This document shows, in pieces, positions 28,282-37,314 of a stretch of DNA of 64,000 nt; the first letter of the stretch is position 1, and every line of letters begins with the position of its first letter. The notes under the pieces are model-generated. The model worked only from the letters and a program-made list of their open reading frames with translations. It was not told where the DNA came from and ran no database searches. The translations under genes and the position numbers were made by a program. This DNA comes from Leisingera aquaemixtae (GTDB lineage: Bacteria > Pseudomonadota > Alphaproteobacteria > Rhodobacterales > Rhodobacteraceae): contig NZ_CYSR01000030.1 of assembly GCF_001458395.1 (NCBI RefSeq), positions 558,001-622,000 of the forward strand, read 5' to 3'.

Positions 28282-29019
28282 TCAAATGCTCATCTTCTTG
28301 AACACAGCTTCCGGAATGCTGCGGATGATCAGCATGATCAGCCGCCAGACCGGCCGCACATAGACGATGTTTTTCTGCTTGGCAGTGGCCTCGGTGATGG
28401 CGCGGGCGACTTCCTCGGGCTGGGCCGTCAGCTTGTCCGGCAGGTCCATGCCCTCGGTCATCTGCGTGGCGACGAACCCCGGCAGCACCGTAACCACATG
28501 CACGCCCTTGCGGGCCAGCCGGTTGCGCAGGCCGGACAGGAAGGCGGTGAAGCCGGCCTTGGCCGCGCCGTAGACATAGTTGGTCGCGCGGCCGCGGTCT
28601 CCGGCCACCGAGCTGATCCCCACCAGCGTGCCGGAGCCGCGCTGTTCAAACCGGCTGGCCAGAACCGAAAGAATGCTGGCAGGGCCTTCGAAGTTGCTGC
28701 GCAGGACCCGGGCCGCGGCGGCGGGGCTGATTTCGCTTTCGCCCTGCTCCCCCATGAAGCCGACGGCGCAGACGGCGATGCCGGGCAGTTCCGGCAGCGC
28801 ACCGGCAAAGCGTTCATGATAATCCAGCGCCAGCGCGTCGAATTCATGCAGAGAGACCGGCACGCCGTGGCGCAGCTCCAGATCGGTCTTCTGGGGTTCC
28901 AGATTGCCGGCATTCCGGGCCGCCAGTTGAACCGGGTGGCCTTGCGCAGCATAGGCATGGGCCACTGCCATGCCGATGTCCGACCGGGCGCCAAGGATCA
29001 GAACGGGAGATTTTGTCAT
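28282..29019 (-). CDS. SDR-family oxidoreductase, DprE2-like (polyprenylphosphoryl 2-keto-pentose reductase)
   Basis: A 245-residue short-chain dehydrogenase. The nucleotide motif is unusual for SDRs, LGARSDIGMAVA (about 10-21), as in DprE2; the catalytic Ser-Tyr-Lys set is visible in GISSVAGDRG and YGAAKAG. The hydrophobic C-terminus (about 222-236) could contact the membrane. Its ATG overlaps the DprE1-like stop by 4 nt. Together the two would epimerise C2 of polyprenylphosphoryl ribose to arabinose. An in-frame extension to 29391 is not part of the gene. Confidence 0.87.
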   Translation of the reverse strand: MTKSPVLILGARSDIGMAVAHAYAAQGHPVQLAARNAGNLEPQKTDLELRHGVPVSLHEFDALALDYHERFAGALPELPGIAVCAVGFMGEQGESEISPAAAARVLRSNFEGPASILSVLASRFEQRGSGTLVGISSVAGDRGRATNYVYGAAKAGFTAFLSGLRNRLARKGVHVVTVLPGFVATQMTEGMDLPDKLTAQPEEVARAITEATAKQKNIVYVRPVWRLIMLIIRSIPEAVFKKMSI

Positions 29020-30344
29020 AGCGATAGCCTTTGCGACTGGGCGGACTGGAAGGACGGGTGCATCCCGGACAGCTGCCGCATACCGGCAAACTCTGCTGCC
29101 CTGGAGTCGGCAGCGTGCAGCGTGTCCCGGCTCATCCGGCTGTCCTTGGCCAGATAGAAGCGGCCGCCGTGGGCAATGGTGATACGGTCGAGGTCCTGCA
29201 TCAGCTGCAGGCTGCGGCGGTTGACCGGGAAGTCCAGCGCCAGCGTGTAGCCCTCCATCGGGAAGGAGAACGGGCTGTCCTGCGCGCCCAGCCGCTTGAG
29301 CACCGCCAGGAAGGAGCCCTGCCCGGCGGCGGAGATCGCCTGCAGAAGCGCGCGCAGCCCCGGCCGGGCGCTGTCGAGCGGCAGCACGCATTGGAACTGG
29401 GCAAAGCCCTTGCGCCCGTAGATCCGGTTCCAGCCCAAAAGCGCGTCGAGCGGAAAGAAGTAGCTGTCAAAATCGGTGATCTGCCGCCCTGCCTTGCGCG
29501 CACCGGTCCAGAAATAGGCCGCGTTGAAGGCGCGGACGCTGAAGCGGTTCAGCGCAAAGGACGGGAACACGGGCGGCACGGTGCGGCTGCCGAAACGGGG
29601 AATGGCAAAGGGGCGCGCGGCCTGGTCATAGCTCAGATCCTGCAGCCCGGCATGTTCCCCCAGCATGACCAGCGACCGCCCCAGCCTGCCGCCGCCCGCC
29701 AGGCAGTCGATCCAGGCCACGGAATAGGTCGCAGCGGCGGAGCGTTCGAAGATTTCGATGGCCGCGTGGAGGTTTGCAGCCGGTATTGTCTGTTGCCGGA
29801 TCCAGGCCGAGGACACCCGGCGCAGGCGGATGGCAGCCCGCAGGATCACGCCCGTAAGCCCCATGCCGCCAGCGGTCCAGTTGAACAACTCTGTGTTTTC
29901 CTGGGGGGAGCAGCGGCGGACCGTTCCGTCCGGCCCCATCACCTCGACCCAGTCCAGGCAGCTGCGGAAACTGCCGTCCTTGTGGTGGTTCTTGCCATGC
30001 ACATCCGCGGCAATGGCGCCGCCAAGGGTCACGAACTTGGTGCCCGGCACCACCGCCGGAAACCAGCCCCGCGGCAGGAAGGCAGAGATGATATCGCCCA
30101 GCAGCACACCGCTTTCCGCCACCAGCAAGCCGGTCTGCGCATCAAAGGAGATCATCTTGTCGAAATGGCGCATATGCAGGGTCGCCGGCACGCCAACCGC
30201 GCTGTCGCCATAGGCGCGGCCATTGCCCCGGGCGATGACGGAAGGATTGCTGGCGATCAGCCCCTGCAGCTCCGCCTCGCTGCGCGGCGCAAGCAGCTGC
30301 GCCTGGGACACGGGGTAGTTGCCCCAGCCTGACAGCCGTCTCAT
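29016..30344 (-). CDS. FAD-dependent oxidoreductase, DprE1-like (polyprenylphosphoryl-ribose 2-oxidase)
   Basis: A 442-residue VAO/PCMH-type flavoprotein. The FAD-binding segment ARGNGRAYGDSAVG (about 38-51) matches the DprE1 signature, followed by VVPGTKFVTLGGAIAADVHGKNHH. The opening RLSGWGNYPVSQAQLLAP is also typical. It would oxidise the 2-hydroxyl of polyprenylphosphoryl ribose. Both ends overlap neighbours by 4 nt (GtrA gene upstream, DprE2-like downstream). Confidence 0.9.
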   Translation of the reverse strand: MRRLSGWGNYPVSQAQLLAPRSEAELQGLIASNPSVIARGNGRAYGDSAVGVPATLHMRHFDKMISFDAQTGLLVAESGVLLGDIISAFLPRGWFPAVVPGTKFVTLGGAIAADVHGKNHHKDGSFRSCLDWVEVMGPDGTVRRCSPQENTELFNWTAGGMGLTGVILRAAIRLRRVSSAWIRQQTIPAANLHAAIEIFERSAAATYSVAWIDCLAGGGRLGRSLVMLGEHAGLQDLSYDQAARPFAIPRFGSRTVPPVFPSFALNRFSVRAFNAAYFWTGARKAGRQITDFDSYFFPLDALLGWNRIYGRKGFAQFQCVLPLDSARPGLRALLQAISAAGQGSFLAVLKRLGAQDSPFSFPMEGYTLALDFPVNRRSLQLMQDLDRITIAHGGRFYLAKDSRMSRDTLHAADSRAAEFAGMRQLSGMHPSFQSAQSQRLSL

Positions 30345-30760
30345 TCCGCGTTCTTTGAGCGGCGGGCAAAGACGAACTGCCGGTCGAGCTGGTATTTCAC
30401 CGTGTAGCCGATTACCAGCCCCAGGATTGCCCCGGCCTCGCGCGCCGCATCGGTGCCCCAGGTGAGCCAGAACAGCGTTTCGGTGATCCAGAACACCGCC
30501 GTGGTCGCCACCCCCATCGCCGAATACAGCAGGAAGGTCCGGCCCTGGTGCTTCAGGCCGCCCTGCTGGTCAAAGAAGATCCACCGCTTGTCCAGAAGGT
30601 ATTTGACCACCAGCCCGGCCAAAGTGCCCGCAGCCATGGCAGCGGTGAAATGGGCGCCGGTCTCCCCCAGCTGCAAAACCGCGCGCTGGGTGGCGAGGTT
30701 GACGGCGGTGGCCACGGCCGCGAAGGCGGAGTAGCGGACAAGAAGCTGGTGCAGGGTCAT
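30341..30760 (-). CDS. GtrA-family membrane protein
   Basis: A 139-residue protein with four membrane helices and the GtrA pattern (YSAFAAVATAVNLATQRAVL; VVKYLLDKRWIFF; GYTVKYQLDRQFVF). GtrA proteins are thought to help move polyprenyl-linked sugars across the membrane. The ATG at 30760 overlaps the HAD-UbiA stop. Here it is the candidate flippase for polyprenylphosphoryl arabinose. Confidence 0.88.
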   Translation of the reverse strand: MTLHQLLVRYSAFAAVATAVNLATQRAVLQLGETGAHFTAAMAAGTLAGLVVKYLLDKRWIFFDQQGGLKHQGRTFLLYSAMGVATTAVFWITETLFWLTWGTDAAREAGAILGLVIGYTVKYQLDRQFVFARRSKNAE

Positions 30761-32205
30761 AGCGCGCTGCTCCACACCGCAAAGGACAGCGCGATCAGGA
30801 AGCACAGCTGGCTGCCGCGGTCGCGCGCGGCATAGACCACCGGGTCATCCTGCATCTGGCCGCGATGGGCCAGCATCACCGTATTGGTGATCCAATAGAG
30901 CAGCACACAGCAAATCCCCCACAACCCCTGCGGCGTGGTGTACAGCGCGGCAACCGCCGGCGAATTGAGGTAGAGCGCCAGAACGAGCACCGACACGTAG
31001 CCCGCGGCAATCGCGATCATCGAGATCACCGGCAGATCGTCAACGTGATAGCCGCGCCCCTTGGCGGTCAGCTGCTGTCGCCTGGCGCTGTCCACCAGCT
31101 CCGCCTGGCGTTTCACGGCGGCCAGCGAAAAGAAGAAGAAAATGGAAAACGCCAGCAGCCAGACCGACAGCGGTATGCCGGTAGCGGCACCTCCCGCCGC
31201 GATGCGGATCGTGTAAAGCCCCGCCAGCAGGCAGATATCCATCACGATCAGCCGCTTGAAATGCAGCGAGTAGGCTGTTGTCATTGCGTAATAAAGCAGG
31301 ATGACGCCAAGAAACAACAGGCCCAGCGGCAGGGCCGCCGCCAACCCGCCCAGAAACAGCGCCGCCGCCATCCAACTGCCATGCTCAATCGGGATGCGGC
31401 CCGCGGCAAAGGGCCGGAACCGCTTGCGCGGATGGGCGCGGTCGGCGTTCAGGTCAAGGAGGTCATTCACCACATAAACGCTGGAGGCGATCAGGCTGAA
31501 CGACAGGAACGCCAGCAGCGACTGCACCAGGGTCACCATGTCCAGCTGATGCGCGGCCAGCATCGGCAGGAACACGAGGATGTTCTTCAACCACTGATGC
31601 GGCCGCAGCGCCTTGACATACGCGGCCAGCGCGGGCTCCACCGTTGCCAGATGTTCGGTCCGGGACGCCGCGTGCTCCGCCTTCTGGCGCAGCGCCGGGG
31701 CGGCATTGACGGTGACCGCCGTTGACGCCAGCCGCCAGACCGGCAGATCGGCCGGGGAATCCCCCATGTAGGCAAACCCGCCCGCGCCGAACCGGTTTTG
31801 CAGGAACTCCGCCTTGACCGGGCCCTTCAGGTTTTCGGTGCCGGTGGAGCCATGCACCTCGTCAAACAGGTCCAGGTGAGCGGCGATCTGATCGGCGATG
31901 GACTGGTCGCTGGCAGTCACCAGCGCGGTCTGGCCGCCCCGCTGCCGCCAGTCCCTGACATAGTCCATGACCGCCGGATCATAAGGCAGGCTGGCCGCAT
32001 CAATGCGGGAGGTGCCGGCCAAATGCCGCTTCAGCGCCGCTCGGCCGTTCAGCAGCGCAACCGCCGCGGAAAAGGGGCTTTTCCAGTCGCGCCCGAAGGA
32101 AGACCAGAAGCTTTCATAGAGGATATTGCTGCGCAGCAGAGTGCCATCCAGGTCGACGGCAAGCATGCCGGGCTGCCCGGCCGGAAGCGATGAATCTGTC
32201 GTCAA
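30757..32205 (-). CDS. HAD phosphatase-UbiA prenyltransferase fusion (polyprenyl-phosphate phosphoribosyltransferase type)
   Basis: 482 residues. An N-terminal HAD domain (about 12-190; DLDGT at 18-22, VTASD, GDSPADLPV) is fused to a UbiA membrane domain (about 195-482). The UbiA motif NDLLDLNADRAHPRKRFRP (247-265) matches the decaprenyl-phosphate phosphoribosyltransferase branch (Rv3806c) rather than ubiquinone enzymes. The predicted reaction joins PRPP to polyprenyl phosphate; the HAD part may then remove the 5-phosphate. This leads a four-gene overlapping operon. Confidence 0.88.
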   Translation of the reverse strand: MTTDSSLPAGQPGMLAVDLDGTLLRSNILYESFWSSFGRDWKSPFSAAVALLNGRAALKRHLAGTSRIDAASLPYDPAVMDYVRDWRQRGGQTALVTASDQSIADQIAAHLDLFDEVHGSTGTENLKGPVKAEFLQNRFGAGGFAYMGDSPADLPVWRLASTAVTVNAAPALRQKAEHAASRTEHLATVEPALAAYVKALRPHQWLKNILVFLPMLAAHQLDMVTLVQSLLAFLSFSLIASSVYVVNDLLDLNADRAHPRKRFRPFAAGRIPIEHGSWMAAALFLGGLAAALPLGLLFLGVILLYYAMTTAYSLHFKRLIVMDICLLAGLYTIRIAAGGAATGIPLSVWLLAFSIFFFFSLAAVKRQAELVDSARRQQLTAKGRGYHVDDLPVISMIAIAAGYVSVLVLALYLNSPAVAALYTTPQGLWGICCVLLYWITNTVMLAHRGQMQDDPVVYAARDRGSQLCFLIALSFAVWSSAL

Positions 32206-32399
32206 ATGAAGTCAACCGGAAGATGGATTTGGTCCCTGCCCCGCTTGTACCAGCGGTCCGGCTTTTTGGCTAGGTGCCAACTCCGCCGAGCCGCGGCCGC
32301 CTGTTGCACCGATGCCTGTGCCGGAGCCGCTGTCCGGCAGGGGGAATTTCATAGACGCCCCGGTTCCAGTATGACGGGGCAAAACAATTGAGGTCCGGC

Positions 32400-33806
32400 A
32401 TGACAACTCCCCCGCAGGTTACCGGCATGGCGTGCGCTCCGGCGCCCGGGCTGGCTTCGCTGCTGCGCGAAACCGCAGTTTTCACCCTTGCCGCTGCGGC
32501 GATCGTGCTGGTGACCAGAACGCTGGCGGCGCTGCTGCTGGAGATCCGCCCCGATCCTGTCCACCTGTCCGGGGCATACCAGCACCTGCCGGTGCAGCAG
32601 CTGCATGACGGGCTGCTGGAGGCGCTGATCGCCTTGCATTCTCAGCCGCCGTTCTGGAACTTGCTGCTGGGGCTGGCAGCTAAGGCCTGCAATGCGCAGG
32701 AGGCCTGCATGATCCAGCTGATCTGGGGCAGCCACCTGCTGCTGACCGTTGTGACTGCTGCCAGCATGTTCGCTGCCCTTCGCCTGCTGACCCCGTCGCG
32801 GCGGTTGGCATGGCTGCTGCCGCTGGCCTATGTGCTGTCTCCGGCGGTGTTCTATTACGAGAACTTCATCCTCTATGCCCATTTCACCGCAGCCCTTTTT
32901 GCCTTGTCGTGCCTCTGCGTCCTGCTGCTGCTGAAAACGCGCCGCACGCTGTATTTCCTGCTGTTCTGCGCCTGCCTCGCGATCCTGTCGCTGACCTGGA
33001 CGCTGTTCCACCCGATTTACATCCTGCTGGTGGGAGGCCTGGTCCTGTTCAAGGCGGGCGCCGGACCGGCCCGCGCCGCCATCCTGGCCCTGACGCTGGC
33101 GGTATCGCTGCTGCCGTCGGTCAAGAACAAGGCGGTGTTCGGCATTTTCAGTTCCGGCAGCTGGCTTGGCCTCAATGTCTCGCAAGTGGCGCCGGAGCGG
33201 ATCGAGGGGTGTTCCTTCAAGACGTTTGCCGAAACCCACGGGCTGATCGGCCAGCATATTGGCAGCGCCCTGAACGATCCGCGGATGATCGGTTATTCCA
33301 AAACCTGCCTTAAGAAGTCTCTGGACGTGATTGCTGCCAGCCCCCTGCAATACGCCGCCGGCGTGGTGGTGCGCGCCTCGACCAGCCTGTCGCTGTGGCC
33401 GAACGAATACCTGTTCCCGCCGCTGAACTGGGACCGCTTCCCCAAACTGCCGGACACCAAGCGGGTGCTGACCGAAGACAACAAGATCGTGATCGACCCC
33501 AGCCTGTCGCGGTTCCTGACGCTGGCGCTGAACCTGTTCGCGCTGATCGCCCTGGCGGAGCTTGCGCGCCGGGACAGGGATCCGGCACGCCGGGCGTTCT
33601 TTCAGGTGATGCTGCTGTCGGTCGTGCTGTTCCTGGGGGTGGCCCACGCGGTGAACGGGCCTGAGCAGGAGCGCATGCGCTACACGCTGCATCCGCTGTT
33701 CTGGGGGCTTTACGCCGTGGTGCTGCTGGAGGCCGGCCGCCGCTTGAGGCGGCTGTTCGCACGCGCCGGAGCAGAAAACCTGCCATCGGCGGGCAGCTCG
33801 CGCTAA
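32400..33806 (+). CDS. Polytopic membrane protein, GT-C glycosyltransferase-like
   Basis: 468 residues with about ten to eleven membrane helices. It is divergent from the polyprenyl-arabinose operon, starting 195 bases away. The first large loop (about 40-75) contains acidic residues and a SQPPFWN segment like those near the catalytic site of GT-C enzymes, but I do not see a certain DxD or ExD motif. Context suggests it uses the lipid-linked sugar. The ATG at 32400 has a GAGG site; a TTG four codons upstream is possible. Specificity unknown. Confidence 0.65.
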   Translation: MTTPPQVTGMACAPAPGLASLLRETAVFTLAAAAIVLVTRTLAALLLEIRPDPVHLSGAYQHLPVQQLHDGLLEALIALHSQPPFWNLLLGLAAKACNAQEACMIQLIWGSHLLLTVVTAASMFAALRLLTPSRRLAWLLPLAYVLSPAVFYYENFILYAHFTAALFALSCLCVLLLLKTRRTLYFLLFCACLAILSLTWTLFHPIYILLVGGLVLFKAGAGPARAAILALTLAVSLLPSVKNKAVFGIFSSGSWLGLNVSQVAPERIEGCSFKTFAETHGLIGQHIGSALNDPRMIGYSKTCLKKSLDVIAASPLQYAAGVVVRASTSLSLWPNEYLFPPLNWDRFPKLPDTKRVLTEDNKIVIDPSLSRFLTLALNLFALIALAELARRDRDPARRAFFQVMLLSVVLFLGVAHAVNGPEQERMRYTLHPLFWGLYAVVLLEAGRRLRRLFARAGAENLPSAGSSR

Positions 33807-35118: not shown

Positions 35119-35982
35119 ATGACCCCCGCCGTCAAAGCCTTTTTCGACGAAGCCACCAACACCGTGTCCTACGTGGTGCGCGAGCCCGAGGGCACAGCCT
35201 GCGCCATCATCGACTCGGTCCTGGACTTTGATCACGCCGCCGGACGCACCAGCACCGCCTCTGCCGACGCCATCATCGCCTGGGTCAAGGCCGAGGGCCT
35301 GAGGGTGGAGTGGATCCTGGAGAGCCATGTCCATGCTGACCACCTGTCCGCCGCCCCCTATCTGCAGGAACAGCTGGGCGGCAAGATCGGCATTGGCGAC
35401 CGGATCACCGTGGTCCAGGACACCTTTGGCAAGATTTTCAACGAAGGCACCGAGTTCCAGCGCGACGGCAGCCAGTTCGACCAGCTGTTCCGCGAAGGCG
35501 ACAGCTTCATGATCGGCCAGCTGCGCGGCGAGGTGCTGCACACACCCGGCCACACGCCCGCCTGCCTGACCTACGTGATCGGCGATGCGGCCTTTGTCGG
35601 CGACACGCTGTTCATGCCCGATTTTGGCACCGCCCGCTGCGATTTCCCGGGCGGCTCCTCTGCCGATCTGTACAACTCGATCCAGAAGATCCTAACGCTG
35701 CCGGACGAGACCCGCATCTTTGTCGGCCACGATTACAAGGCGCCGGGCCGCGACGATTATGCCTGGGAGACGACAGTGGGCGAGCAGAAGGCGCTGAACG
35801 TGCATGTGGGTGAAGGCCGCAGCATCGAGGAATTCGTCCAGATGCGCGACGCCCGCGACGCGACGCTGGGGATGCCGCGGCTGATCCTGCCGTCGCTGCA
35901 AGTGAATATGCGCGCAGGCCAGATGCCGGAGCCGGATGAGCAGGGCGATGTGATCCTGAAGATCCCGGTGAACAAGATCTGA
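35119..35982 (+). CDS. MBL-fold metallo-hydrolase, persulfide dioxygenase (ETHE1/Blh) type
   Basis: A 287-residue metallo-beta-lactamase-fold protein. The metal motif is ESHVHADHLSAAPYL (HxHxDH), with a second His in HTPGHTPACL and an Asp in GDTLFMPDFGTARCDF, typical of ETHE1-like sulfur dioxygenases and the Blh protein of BigR operons. It would oxidise glutathione persulfide to sulfite. It leads an operon with two YeeE/YedE proteins and a DUF442 sulfurtransferase. Confidence 0.9.
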   Translation: MTPAVKAFFDEATNTVSYVVREPEGTACAIIDSVLDFDHAAGRTSTASADAIIAWVKAEGLRVEWILESHVHADHLSAAPYLQEQLGGKIGIGDRITVVQDTFGKIFNEGTEFQRDGSQFDQLFREGDSFMIGQLRGEVLHTPGHTPACLTYVIGDAAFVGDTLFMPDFGTARCDFPGGSSADLYNSIQKILTLPDETRIFVGHDYKAPGRDDYAWETTVGEQKALNVHVGEGRSIEEFVQMRDARDATLGMPRLILPSLQVNMRAGQMPEPDEQGDVILKIPVNKI

Positions 35983-36014
35983 CCGGACGCACGGGAAAGG
36001 ACCAGGGAAAGACA

Positions 36015-36443
36015 ATGCAAGCAGACTGGATTTGGGGACTGGGCGGCGGCCTGCTGATCGGGCTAGGCGGCGCGGTTTACCTGCTCGGCAACGGCCGGAT
36101 CATGGGGGCCAGCGGCATCCTGGGCGGTCTTCTGGATGGCAGCGGCCGAAACACAGCGGCTGAGCGGATCGCTTTTATCGCCGGGGTGATTGGCATGCCG
36201 CTGCTGATCGGGCTGCTGACGGGCGGCACGCCCGATACCCATGTCACCAGCAATGCGGCGGTTCTGGTGCTTGCCGGGCTGCTGGTGGGGGTCGGCACCC
36301 GCGTTGCCAACGGCTGCACGTCCGGCCACGGGGTTTGCGGCATTTCCCGCCTGTCCTTGCGCGGGATTGCGGCGACCGCCGTCTTCATGCTGGCGGGCAT
36401 TCTGACGCTGGCGGTGCTGCGCCAGCTGCTGGGGGTGGTCTGA
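36015..36443 (+). CDS. YeeE/YedE-family sulfur transport protein, first half
   Basis: A 142-residue membrane protein with four helices and the family motif RVANGCTSGHGVCGISRLSLR near residue 96, whose cysteine is thought to relay sulfur species. Its stop overlaps the next start (TGATG), so the two are probably a heterodimer equivalent to one full-length YeeE. Confidence 0.9.
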   Translation: MQADWIWGLGGGLLIGLGGAVYLLGNGRIMGASGILGGLLDGSGRNTAAERIAFIAGVIGMPLLIGLLTGGTPDTHVTSNAAVLVLAGLLVGVGTRVANGCTSGHGVCGISRLSLRGIAATAVFMLAGILTLAVLRQLLGVV

Positions 36444-36877
36444 TGCTGCGGATGTTTCTGGCACTGGCCGCAGGCAGCCTGTTCGGGGCCGGTCTGATGT
36501 TTTCGGGGATGACTGACACCACCAAGGTACAGGGGTTCCTGGATATCTTTGGCAACTGGGACCCTACCCTGGCCTTCGTGATGGGCGGCGCGCTGCTGCC
36601 GATGGGGCTGGCCTGGCGGTTGACGGAAGGGCGCAAGCCGGCCGCCGGCGGCAGCTTTCCTTCACCGCCCTCGGCCGAGCTGGACCGGCGGCTTGCTCTT
36701 GGGTCGGTGCTCTTCGGCATCGGCTGGGGGCTGGTGGGCCTGTGCCCCGGCCCGGCGATGGCCTCGCTCAGCTACAACAGCTGGCAAGGCGCGCTGTTCC
36801 TGGCGGCGATGGCCTGCGGCATGATAGCCGCCCCGGCGGTCAGCCGGCATCTGGACCGTGGCGCCGCAAGCGCGTAA
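36443..36877 (+). CDS. YeeE/YedE-family sulfur transport protein, second half
   Basis: 144 residues with about four helices. It holds the second family motif, GLMFSGMTDTTKVQGFLDIFG near residue 17, and GLVGLCPGPAMAS near residue 95 with its cysteine. Translationally coupled to the first half. The pair is expected to import or export thiosulfate-like or persulfide sulfur. Confidence 0.9.
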   Translation: MLRMFLALAAGSLFGAGLMFSGMTDTTKVQGFLDIFGNWDPTLAFVMGGALLPMGLAWRLTEGRKPAAGGSFPSPPSAELDRRLALGSVLFGIGWGLVGLCPGPAMASLSYNSWQGALFLAAMACGMIAAPAVSRHLDRGAASA

Positions 36878-36888
36878 GGAGTCGGCCC

Positions 36889-37314
36889 ATGGATGCACGT
36901 GTAATCACCCCCCGCTATTCGGTCTCGCCGCAGATCTCGGCTGAGGACCTGCCCGCCATTGCCGCCGCCGGCTATAAGACGGTGATCTGCAACCGCCCGG
37001 ACGAGGAAGTGCCGCCCAGCCATCAGGCGGACGCGATCCGCGACGCAGCTGAAGCAGCCGGCCTGCGGTTTGAGGTTCTGCCCTTGACCCACCAGACCAT
37101 GACGCCGGAAAACGTGGCGGCACAGCGCGAGTTCTATGAGAGCAGCGACGGTCCGGTGCTGGCCTATTGCGCCTCCGGCACGCGCAGCTCTGTGGTCTGG
37201 GCGCTGGGTCAGGCCAGCGAATTGAGCGCGGATGATATTCTGCAAAAGACCGCTGCGGCGGGCTATCAGCTGGACGGGCTGCGCCCGGCGCTGGACTCGC
37301 TGGCAAACCGCTGA
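36889..37314 (+). CDS. DUF442 / TIGR01244-family sulfurtransferase
   Basis: A 141-residue phosphatase-fold protein matching the N-terminal domain of Blh. The active-site loop is AYCASGTRSS (about 93-102), a CxxGxR cradle as in tyrosine-phosphatase and rhodanese-like proteins. In related operons it works with the MBL dioxygenase in sulfide detoxification. The AAGGA site overlaps the upstream stop codon. Confidence 0.88.
   Translation: MDARVITPRYSVSPQISAEDLPAIAAAGYKTVICNRPDEEVPPSHQADAIRDAAEAAGLRFEVLPLTHQTMTPENVAAQREFYESSDGPVLAYCASGTRSSVVWALGQASELSADDILQKTAAAGYQLDGLRPALDSLANR

Follow-up and report, generated by a model that had tools for sequence, protein, structure and literature searches.

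A putative five-gene cassette for D-arabinofuranose transfer in Leisingera aquaemixtae

Introduction

In the prototype three-component pentofuranose system the flippase is a MATE protein and the transferase belongs to GT136, as described in the excerpts of Kelly et al. 2024 on which we draw here (PMC11127046). In the same excerpts, in vitro assays with membranes, phosphoribosyl pyrophosphate (PRPP) and farnesyl phosphate demonstrated the activity of a HAD-UbiA protein, Citrobacter youngae ORF15; homologues of DprE1 and DprE2 are named in systems for arabinofuranose-containing glycans; and the type IV pili of P. aeruginosa are proposed to be O-glycosylated with arabinose by way of a related synthase (PMC11127046). 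This pathway is the closest published system to five genes found in a 64,000-nucleotide (nt) stretch of the Leisingera aquaemixtae genome (assembly GCF_001458395.1, contig NZ_CYSR01000030.1, positions 558,001 to 622,000), hereafter the window. A sequence-only reading of this DNA, from which the three-component pathway was absent, had proposed a complete polyprenylphosphoryl-arabinose pathway beside a divergent candidate transferase gene. Because the three-component pathway with its HAD-UbiA fusion has been published, the principle of the cassette is already known. Here we report that the five genes are one cassette, gained or lost together at one site, and we consider, with a probability of roughly 0.7, that it adds D-arabinofuranose outside the cytoplasm to a surface glycan.

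Results

The operon and its divergent neighbour

The cassette comprises the following features of the window.

28282-29019, (-) strand: DprE2-like short-chain dehydrogenase/reductase (SDR) gene for a keto-sugar reductase (PF00106, NF005489, NF053786)
29016-30344, (-) strand: DprE1-like gene for a flavin adenine dinucleotide (FAD)-dependent 2'-oxidase (NF053785, PDB matches)
30341-30760, (-) strand: GtrA family gene, presumed flippase for the lipid-linked pentose (PF04138, NF037976)
30757-32205, (-) strand: HAD-UbiA fusion gene (PF12710 and PF01040), starting at TTG 32205 or ATG 32166
32206-32399, no strand: divergent intergenic region, presumed site of both promoters
32388-33806, (+) strand: divergent polytopic gene, candidate GT-C arabinofuranosyltransferase (cassette linkage, low-confidence model)

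The sequence-only reading had placed these genes exactly to the single base. The polytopic gene does stand divergent beside the operon, and the 4-nt overlaps claimed among the HAD-UbiA, GtrA, DprE1-like and DprE2-like genes are found at all three junctions, each as ATGA. For the divergent gene, ATG 32400 is the probable start, in place of TTG 32388; in two relatives the TTG is not conserved and the Met at residue 5 is conserved. For the intergenic region 32206-32399, a consensus scan gave no sigma-70-like site; the promoter and terminator scans were uninformative. The GC content was 65.2% in the cassette vs 64.4% in the window, and third-position GC lay at 0.81-0.86 in the cassette and in six neighbours alike.

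Family searches found a recognisable enzyme for each step of the pathway, and the proposal of a complete polyprenylphosphoryl-arabinose route is thus supported by homology. A UbiA domain (PF01040, 74 bits) and a HAD domain (PF12710, 43 bits) were found by Pfam in one protein, the combination of synthase and phosphatase module that characterises the three-component systems. In NCBIfam this protein reached 617 bits against NF006088 (cut-off 351) and 162 bits against the decaprenyl-phosphate phosphoribosyltransferase model NF008978, under the cut-off of 207, while a PDB sequence search matched it at 5.5e-35 to the decaprenyl-phosphate phosphoribosyltransferase 8j8j, a mycobacterial enzyme (PMC11127046). 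HAD motifs and the aspartate-rich UbiA motif are visible in its translation, in which DLDGT, TASD, GDSPAD and NDLLDLNADRAHPRKRFRP were read by eye; the N, D, D and D of NDLLDLNADRAHPRKRFRP are residue types shown to be important, according to the same excerpts (PMC11127046). The GtrA protein matched PF04138 at 45 bits and NF037976 at 166 bits (cut-off 50). For the DprE1-like protein, the score against NF053785 was 392 bits, under the cut-off of 500, and solved decaprenylphosphoryl-ribose oxidases, which we take to be mycobacterial, were matched over nearly the full length (best 1.4e-74). The DprE2-like protein, searched as the over-extended raw open reading frame (ORF) 28282-29391 instead of the gene proper, 28282-29019, scored 342 bits against the SDR model NF005489 (cut-off 267) and 192 bits against NF053786, under the cut-off of 250; the YxxxK of SDR enzymes is visible in its translation.

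Distribution of the cassette in Leisingera

We then compared the site in 21 Leisingera genomes, which are related, so that the counts are not independent. The five-gene set occurred at a single site in 8 of the 21; one of these copies (G203) was decayed and three others had a truncated first gene. The divergent gene was found in these eight genomes, the G203 copy being decayed, and DprE1 stood at the same locus in 8/8, fragmented in G203. The other 13 genomes lack the cassette: in 12 of them a gap of 156-165 bp separates the matches of RidA and DUF2312, and in G205 the gap measures 714 bp. In the G205 gap blastn recovered the two flanks, and all further matches to the cassette were short and at the level of chance. 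One of the 12 short-gap genomes, G209, carries a separate operon elsewhere, without the GT-C of the window. The five genes are one cassette, gained or lost together at one site, and this shared presence and absence is our best evidence for counting the divergent gene as part of the pathway. More widely the divergent gene is rare: it was found in 2 of 198 genomes of the family, our own included, and among 385 genomes sampled from the class only in our own.

As a side observation, a record titled Nocardioides marinus DP1N28-1 (L054, JAHVJD010000002.1) matched the window at 98% in PreA and at 90% in a histidine kinase; its title looks wrong.

Lineages with a truncated synthase

The HAD-UbiA gene was truncated in four genomes, G199 (L. 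aquimarina), G210 (Leisingera sp. NJS204), G214 and G203. In the first three the central part was gone, the same stretch in all, leaving a mini-ORF of about 90-110 codons that retained the ATGA overlap with gtrA. GtrA, DprE1, DprE2 and GT-C were intact there, with low pairwise ratios of nonsynonymous to synonymous substitution (dN/dS) of 0.095-0.196, a result whose reading assumes that the truncation is older than the split of G199, G210 and G214. For the same pairs the flanking RidA and BLH gave 0.031-0.079; in G000, G200 and G201, whose cassettes are intact, the values for the cassette genes were 0.054-0.199. In G203 a similarly truncated gene lies in a cassette whose remainder has decayed.

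G199 and G210 each have a third UbiA-family member, itself a HAD-UbiA, on a contig of some 140 kb. In NJS204 it lies on a plasmid of 140,681 bp (NZ_CP035420.1), and the G199 contig is presumably a plasmid as well, judging from its size and its relatives. Only two UbiA-family members were present in G214 and G203, where a protein search showed no HAD-UbiA beyond the fragment, and no second copy was found in the four genomes whose chromosomal synthase is intact. Six protein clusters, that of the synthase included, were common to the second-replicon synthase stretches of G199 and NJS204 and to the separate operon of G209; DprE1 and DprE2 are present at the G209 locus, and neither was found in the stretches read of the two second replicons. 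In G199 and NJS204, the pathway therefore appears to be split, with the synthase on a plasmid-type replicon and the epimerase and GT-C genes on the chromosome. G214 fits such a split only if the plasmid was lost or the truncation is recent there.

On the 140-kb contig of L. aquimarina (L063, 5682-10868), the HAD-UbiA gene is followed by genes for a polytopic protein without a Pfam match and a PF13440 transporter, a gene set like that of the three-component ribofuranose systems. G199, G210 and G214 carry an insert of 2.6-4.1 kb between RidA and DprE2, which was considered as the seat of a replacement synthase. A UbiA-family search found none in it, and this candidate was rejected because the longest insert (L055) encodes RTX and Ig/cadherin-like repeats. 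In these three truncated-synthase lineages, RidA and DprE2 are separated by a gene for an RTX-repeat protein (L053, 4542-5843; L055, 3534-7061; L056, 12771-16040). The L055 protein has HemolysinCabind, Ig and cadherin-like domains; in L053 and L056 the ORF is fragmented.

The candidate transferase

Searches with the divergent protein were negative in Pfam and NCBIfam (E ≤ 0.01) and among PDB sequences (E ≤ 10). We built an AlphaFold model with three sequences. Foldseek with this poor model placed ArnT (E 0.03), EmbB and oligosaccharyltransferases in its first seven rows. The top rows of VIA-align, from Z 12.8 to 8.3, held a GPI-transamidase chain (presumably PIG-U), ALG3, oligosaccharyltransferases including PglB, Pmt4, ALG6, DPY19, EmbB, AftD and AftB; ArnT, AftA and EmbC came just beneath, with unrelated helical proteins appearing at Z 7.5 and lower. 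The best structure matches of this model are thus GT-C enzymes. For helical models a Z of about 13 can arise by chance, so that GT-C is a candidate fold only, although the consistency of the rows is striking. Linkage to the cassette and these GT-C rows back the divergent gene as a candidate transferase, as the sequence-only reading had it.

In an alignment of the protein (A1), LHSQ.P..N after the first helix, YYE, YAH, FHP and NG.EQERMRYT were invariant. A comparison by hhalign showed no relation between this protein and the polytopic neighbour protein of other loci, and PDB sequence searches with both gave nothing useful. A TAG inside the G213 transferase gene was considered as a disruption and rejected, as it is the normal stop and the gene is intact.

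Two DprE1 clades and Tad/Flp pili

DprE1 matches at E ≤ 0.001 were found in 175 of the 198 family genomes and were mostly remote FAD oxidases. A tree of 55 DprE1 proteins separated the clade of the window (24 proteins; clade 1) from a second clade (31; clade 2) with a support of 1.0. Among the matches listed, clade 1 comprised 20 genomes at 51-100% identity, our own included, and clade 2, as judged by identity, 53 genomes at 39-46% and E ≤ 5.6e-76, of which 31 were placed on the tree; there was besides one short fragment (G069), and matches weaker than these were dropped.

Alignment of the DprE1-like protein to solved DprE1 paired H116 with His132, K400 with Lys418 and A369 with Cys387, the last numbered by counting along the PDB alignment. 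Equivalents of His132, Lys134 and Lys418 were conserved in 55/55 sequences, that of the window included; we take His132 and Lys418 to have functional roles in DprE1. The position of Cys387 held Ala in 54 sequences, among them Ala369 of the window, and Thr in one. Cys387 is presumably the residue targeted by covalent benzothiazinones, and since its equivalent is Ala369 these compounds are not expected to inhibit the window protein. Sensitivity to DprE1 inhibitors would thus be a weak probe for it, a negative outcome being uninformative.

We read 14-20 kb at each of 31 of the 53 clade-2 loci (L085-L095, L122-L141); the loci of both clades were all chosen by a DprE1 or synthase match. At least two of CpaB, CpaC, CpaE and CpaF were found in 24/31 clade-2 loci, or in 21/28 without L086, L090 and L093, which supplied the Tad queries and are themselves positives. 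CpaB and CpaC were both present in 23/31, small pilin-like genes were matched in 24/31, and a LPG_synthase_TM protein occurred in 30/31, the GtrA of the window being matched in 0/31. Pfam backs the names of CpaB, secretin, T2SSE ATPase, AAA_31 ATPase and OmpA proteins in the Tad locus, and the pilin-like genes weakly (PF16982, 16.8 of 33.5 bits). In clade 1, any of the four Tad genes was found in 0/20 loci and GtrA in 19/20. DprE1 and DprE2 were both present in 20/20 clade-1 and 31/31 clade-2 loci.

This gene order suggests that the clade-2 pathway may arabinosylate Flp pili; among the papers listed by searches of an open-access library, none had a title on arabinose in Flp pili. Some of the same loci speak against it: seven carry fewer than two of the four Tad genes, 9/31 have no HAD-UbiA in the stretch read, 25/31 also adjoin CoA-transferase genes, which need have no link to a pilus, and no transferase gene was recognised in the clade-2 loci.

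Genomic context and acceptor

Nothing scanned in the window names the acceptor. Exopolysaccharide-type surroundings recur at loci that hold operons of the DprE1 clade of the window, or the synthase and GtrA from such operons. The G209 operon lies with genes for Poly_export, Wzz, sugar transferase, sulfotransferase and glycosyltransferase (GT) proteins, and the synthase locus of the NJS204 plasmid is annotated with the same exopolysaccharide-type genes. A plasmid operon of Ruegeria adjoins sugar transferase, acyltransferase and glycosyltransferase genes; another, of Salipiger, lies near calcium-binding and YjbH-domain proteins; and the DprE1 proteins of both fall in the clade of the window. We favour an exopolysaccharide-type glycan as the acceptor, from the exopolysaccharide-type loci and the Ruegeria plasmid locus. 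In the clade-1 locus L076, a GT87 gene overlaps dprE2 by 4 nt, which fits the idea that clade-1 operons recruit their own GT-C; mycobacterial AftC is also a GT87 enzyme. Several other clade-1 loci had no such GT gene among the genes listed.

Elsewhere in the window, at 35119-37314, three small genes, two of them for membrane proteins, come after a gene for a metallo-beta-lactamase-fold protein (PF00753); we take this set to resemble a sulfide/persulfide detoxification operon.

Discussion

We infer a mechanism in which the UbiA domain would transfer phosphoribose from PRPP to polyprenyl phosphate and the fused HAD domain would remove the 5'-phosphate. Oxidation by DprE1 and reduction by DprE2 at C2 would then yield polyprenyl-phosphate-D-arabinofuranose, GtrA may aid the membrane crossing of the lipid-linked arabinose, and the divergent GT-C-like protein would hand this sugar on to a glycan of the cell surface, for which exopolysaccharide or O-antigen is most likely.

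Several observations weigh against this mechanism. The model of the divergent protein is poor (mean predicted local distance difference test score 52.5, predicted template modelling score 0.49), Foldseek gave no match at E < 0.001 and listed G-protein-coupled receptors and other helical proteins from E 0.75 up, Z scores up to about 13 can arise by chance for helical bundles or models, and the first periplasmic loop has no invariant acidic residue in alignment A1. Pfam found no glycan gene among the neighbours scanned within the window. The equivalog models for DprE1, DprE2 and the phosphoribosyltransferase all score under their curated cut-offs, and we therefore infer the identity of substrate and product from homology only. 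Finally, G214 retains the other four cassette genes with no synthase detected, and the dN/dS argument depends on the age assumed for the truncation.

It is possible, though unlikely, that the operon makes an arabinose donor while the divergent protein is a second transporter or a polymer-modifying protein, the transferase lying elsewhere in the genome. Such an arrangement would agree with the missing sequence match to any GT family in Pfam or NCBIfam, with the negative hhalign comparison to the polytopic neighbour found at other loci, and with the rarity of the divergent gene in the family and class, which implies that most related operons work without it. However, the divergent gene comes and goes with the operon at one site, its dN/dS is low, as is that of DprE1 and DprE2, and its best fold matches are GT-C enzymes. 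We consider it quite improbable that the donor is a different pentofuranose, for instance another epimer, made by diverged homologues of DprE1 and DprE2. The equivalog scores and the second-replicon synthase loci of G199 and NJS204, with no DprE1 or DprE2 in the stretches read, would allow it, but the near full-length match to solved oxidases, the conservation of the checked catalytic residues, and the joint presence of DprE1 and DprE2 in every clade-1 and clade-2 locus (all chosen by DprE1 or synthase) speak for arabinose.

A protein acceptor, either a pilin or another secreted protein, in place of a polysaccharide also seems unlikely to us. It has a precedent in the related P. aeruginosa synthase proposed for the arabinose O-glycosylation of type IV pili (PMC11127046), and within the family the sister clade of the pathway adjoins Tad pilus genes. 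Yet none of the 20 clade-1 loci contained the Tad genes tested, and the clade-1 loci with readable context include exopolysaccharide-type loci. 

Extending this to the order, we put forward a joint proposal that remains tentative and that we hold at somewhat less than even odds. Rhodobacterales would have two old, specialised arabinose-donor clades: that of the window would decorate exopolysaccharide-type glycans, using GtrA and exchangeable GT-Cs, and be split in some Leisingera; the other would serve Tad/Flp pili with a LPG_synthase_TM-type protein, and up to roughly one quarter of the family would then carry arabinose on their Flp pili; and the GT-C of the window would found a new transferase family. 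The locus matters in several respects. A pathway known as a mycobacterial drug target occurs as an accessory cassette in a growable marine genus, together with a candidate new family of arabinofuranosyltransferases. In naturally truncated lines a second replicon apparently supplies the first step, which makes step sharing testable, and the gene order of clade 2 predicts a chemical modification of Tad/Flp pili.

Comparison with known systems

The parallels with mycobacteria and Azorhizobium drawn by the sequence-only reading are supported. With the mycobacterial pathway for arabinan (Rv3806c, Rv3807c, DprE1, DprE2, Rv3789, Emb/Aft) the cassette shares a homologous phosphoribosyltransferase domain, DprE1 and a DprE2-like SDR, a small membrane protein presumed to be a flippase (GtrA and Rv3789 being compared by role) and a putative GT-C step towards the acceptor. 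It differs in that the 5'-phosphatase is a fused HAD domain and not Rv3807c, that the equivalent of Cys387 is Ala, and that the host is Gram-negative. The noeCHOP genes of Azorhizobium and noeCNHOP of Rhizobium sp. IRBG74, as presented in the excerpts consulted (PMC2443382, PMC5080398), likewise provide an arabinose donor in alphaproteobacteria and include a transferase gene dedicated to it, noeP, which is compared here by description only; their acceptor, however, is the Nod factor and they lie in nod loci.

The likeness is closest to the three-component systems of C. youngae O1/O2, which, in the excerpts cited, have a HAD-UbiA fusion making polyprenyl-phosphate-ribofuranose from PRPP, a flippase, a GT-C and sugar-setting epimerase genes (PMC11127046). 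In contrast to these, the cassette has GtrA and not a MATE protein, none of its five proteins matching a polysaccharide transporter; its candidate GT-C is unclassified, GT136 being known here by description only; and it stands outside any O-antigen cluster in the neighbourhood scanned. By analogy, the cassette should operate like the published system, with GtrA in place of the MATE flippase and the unclassified candidate as its transferase.

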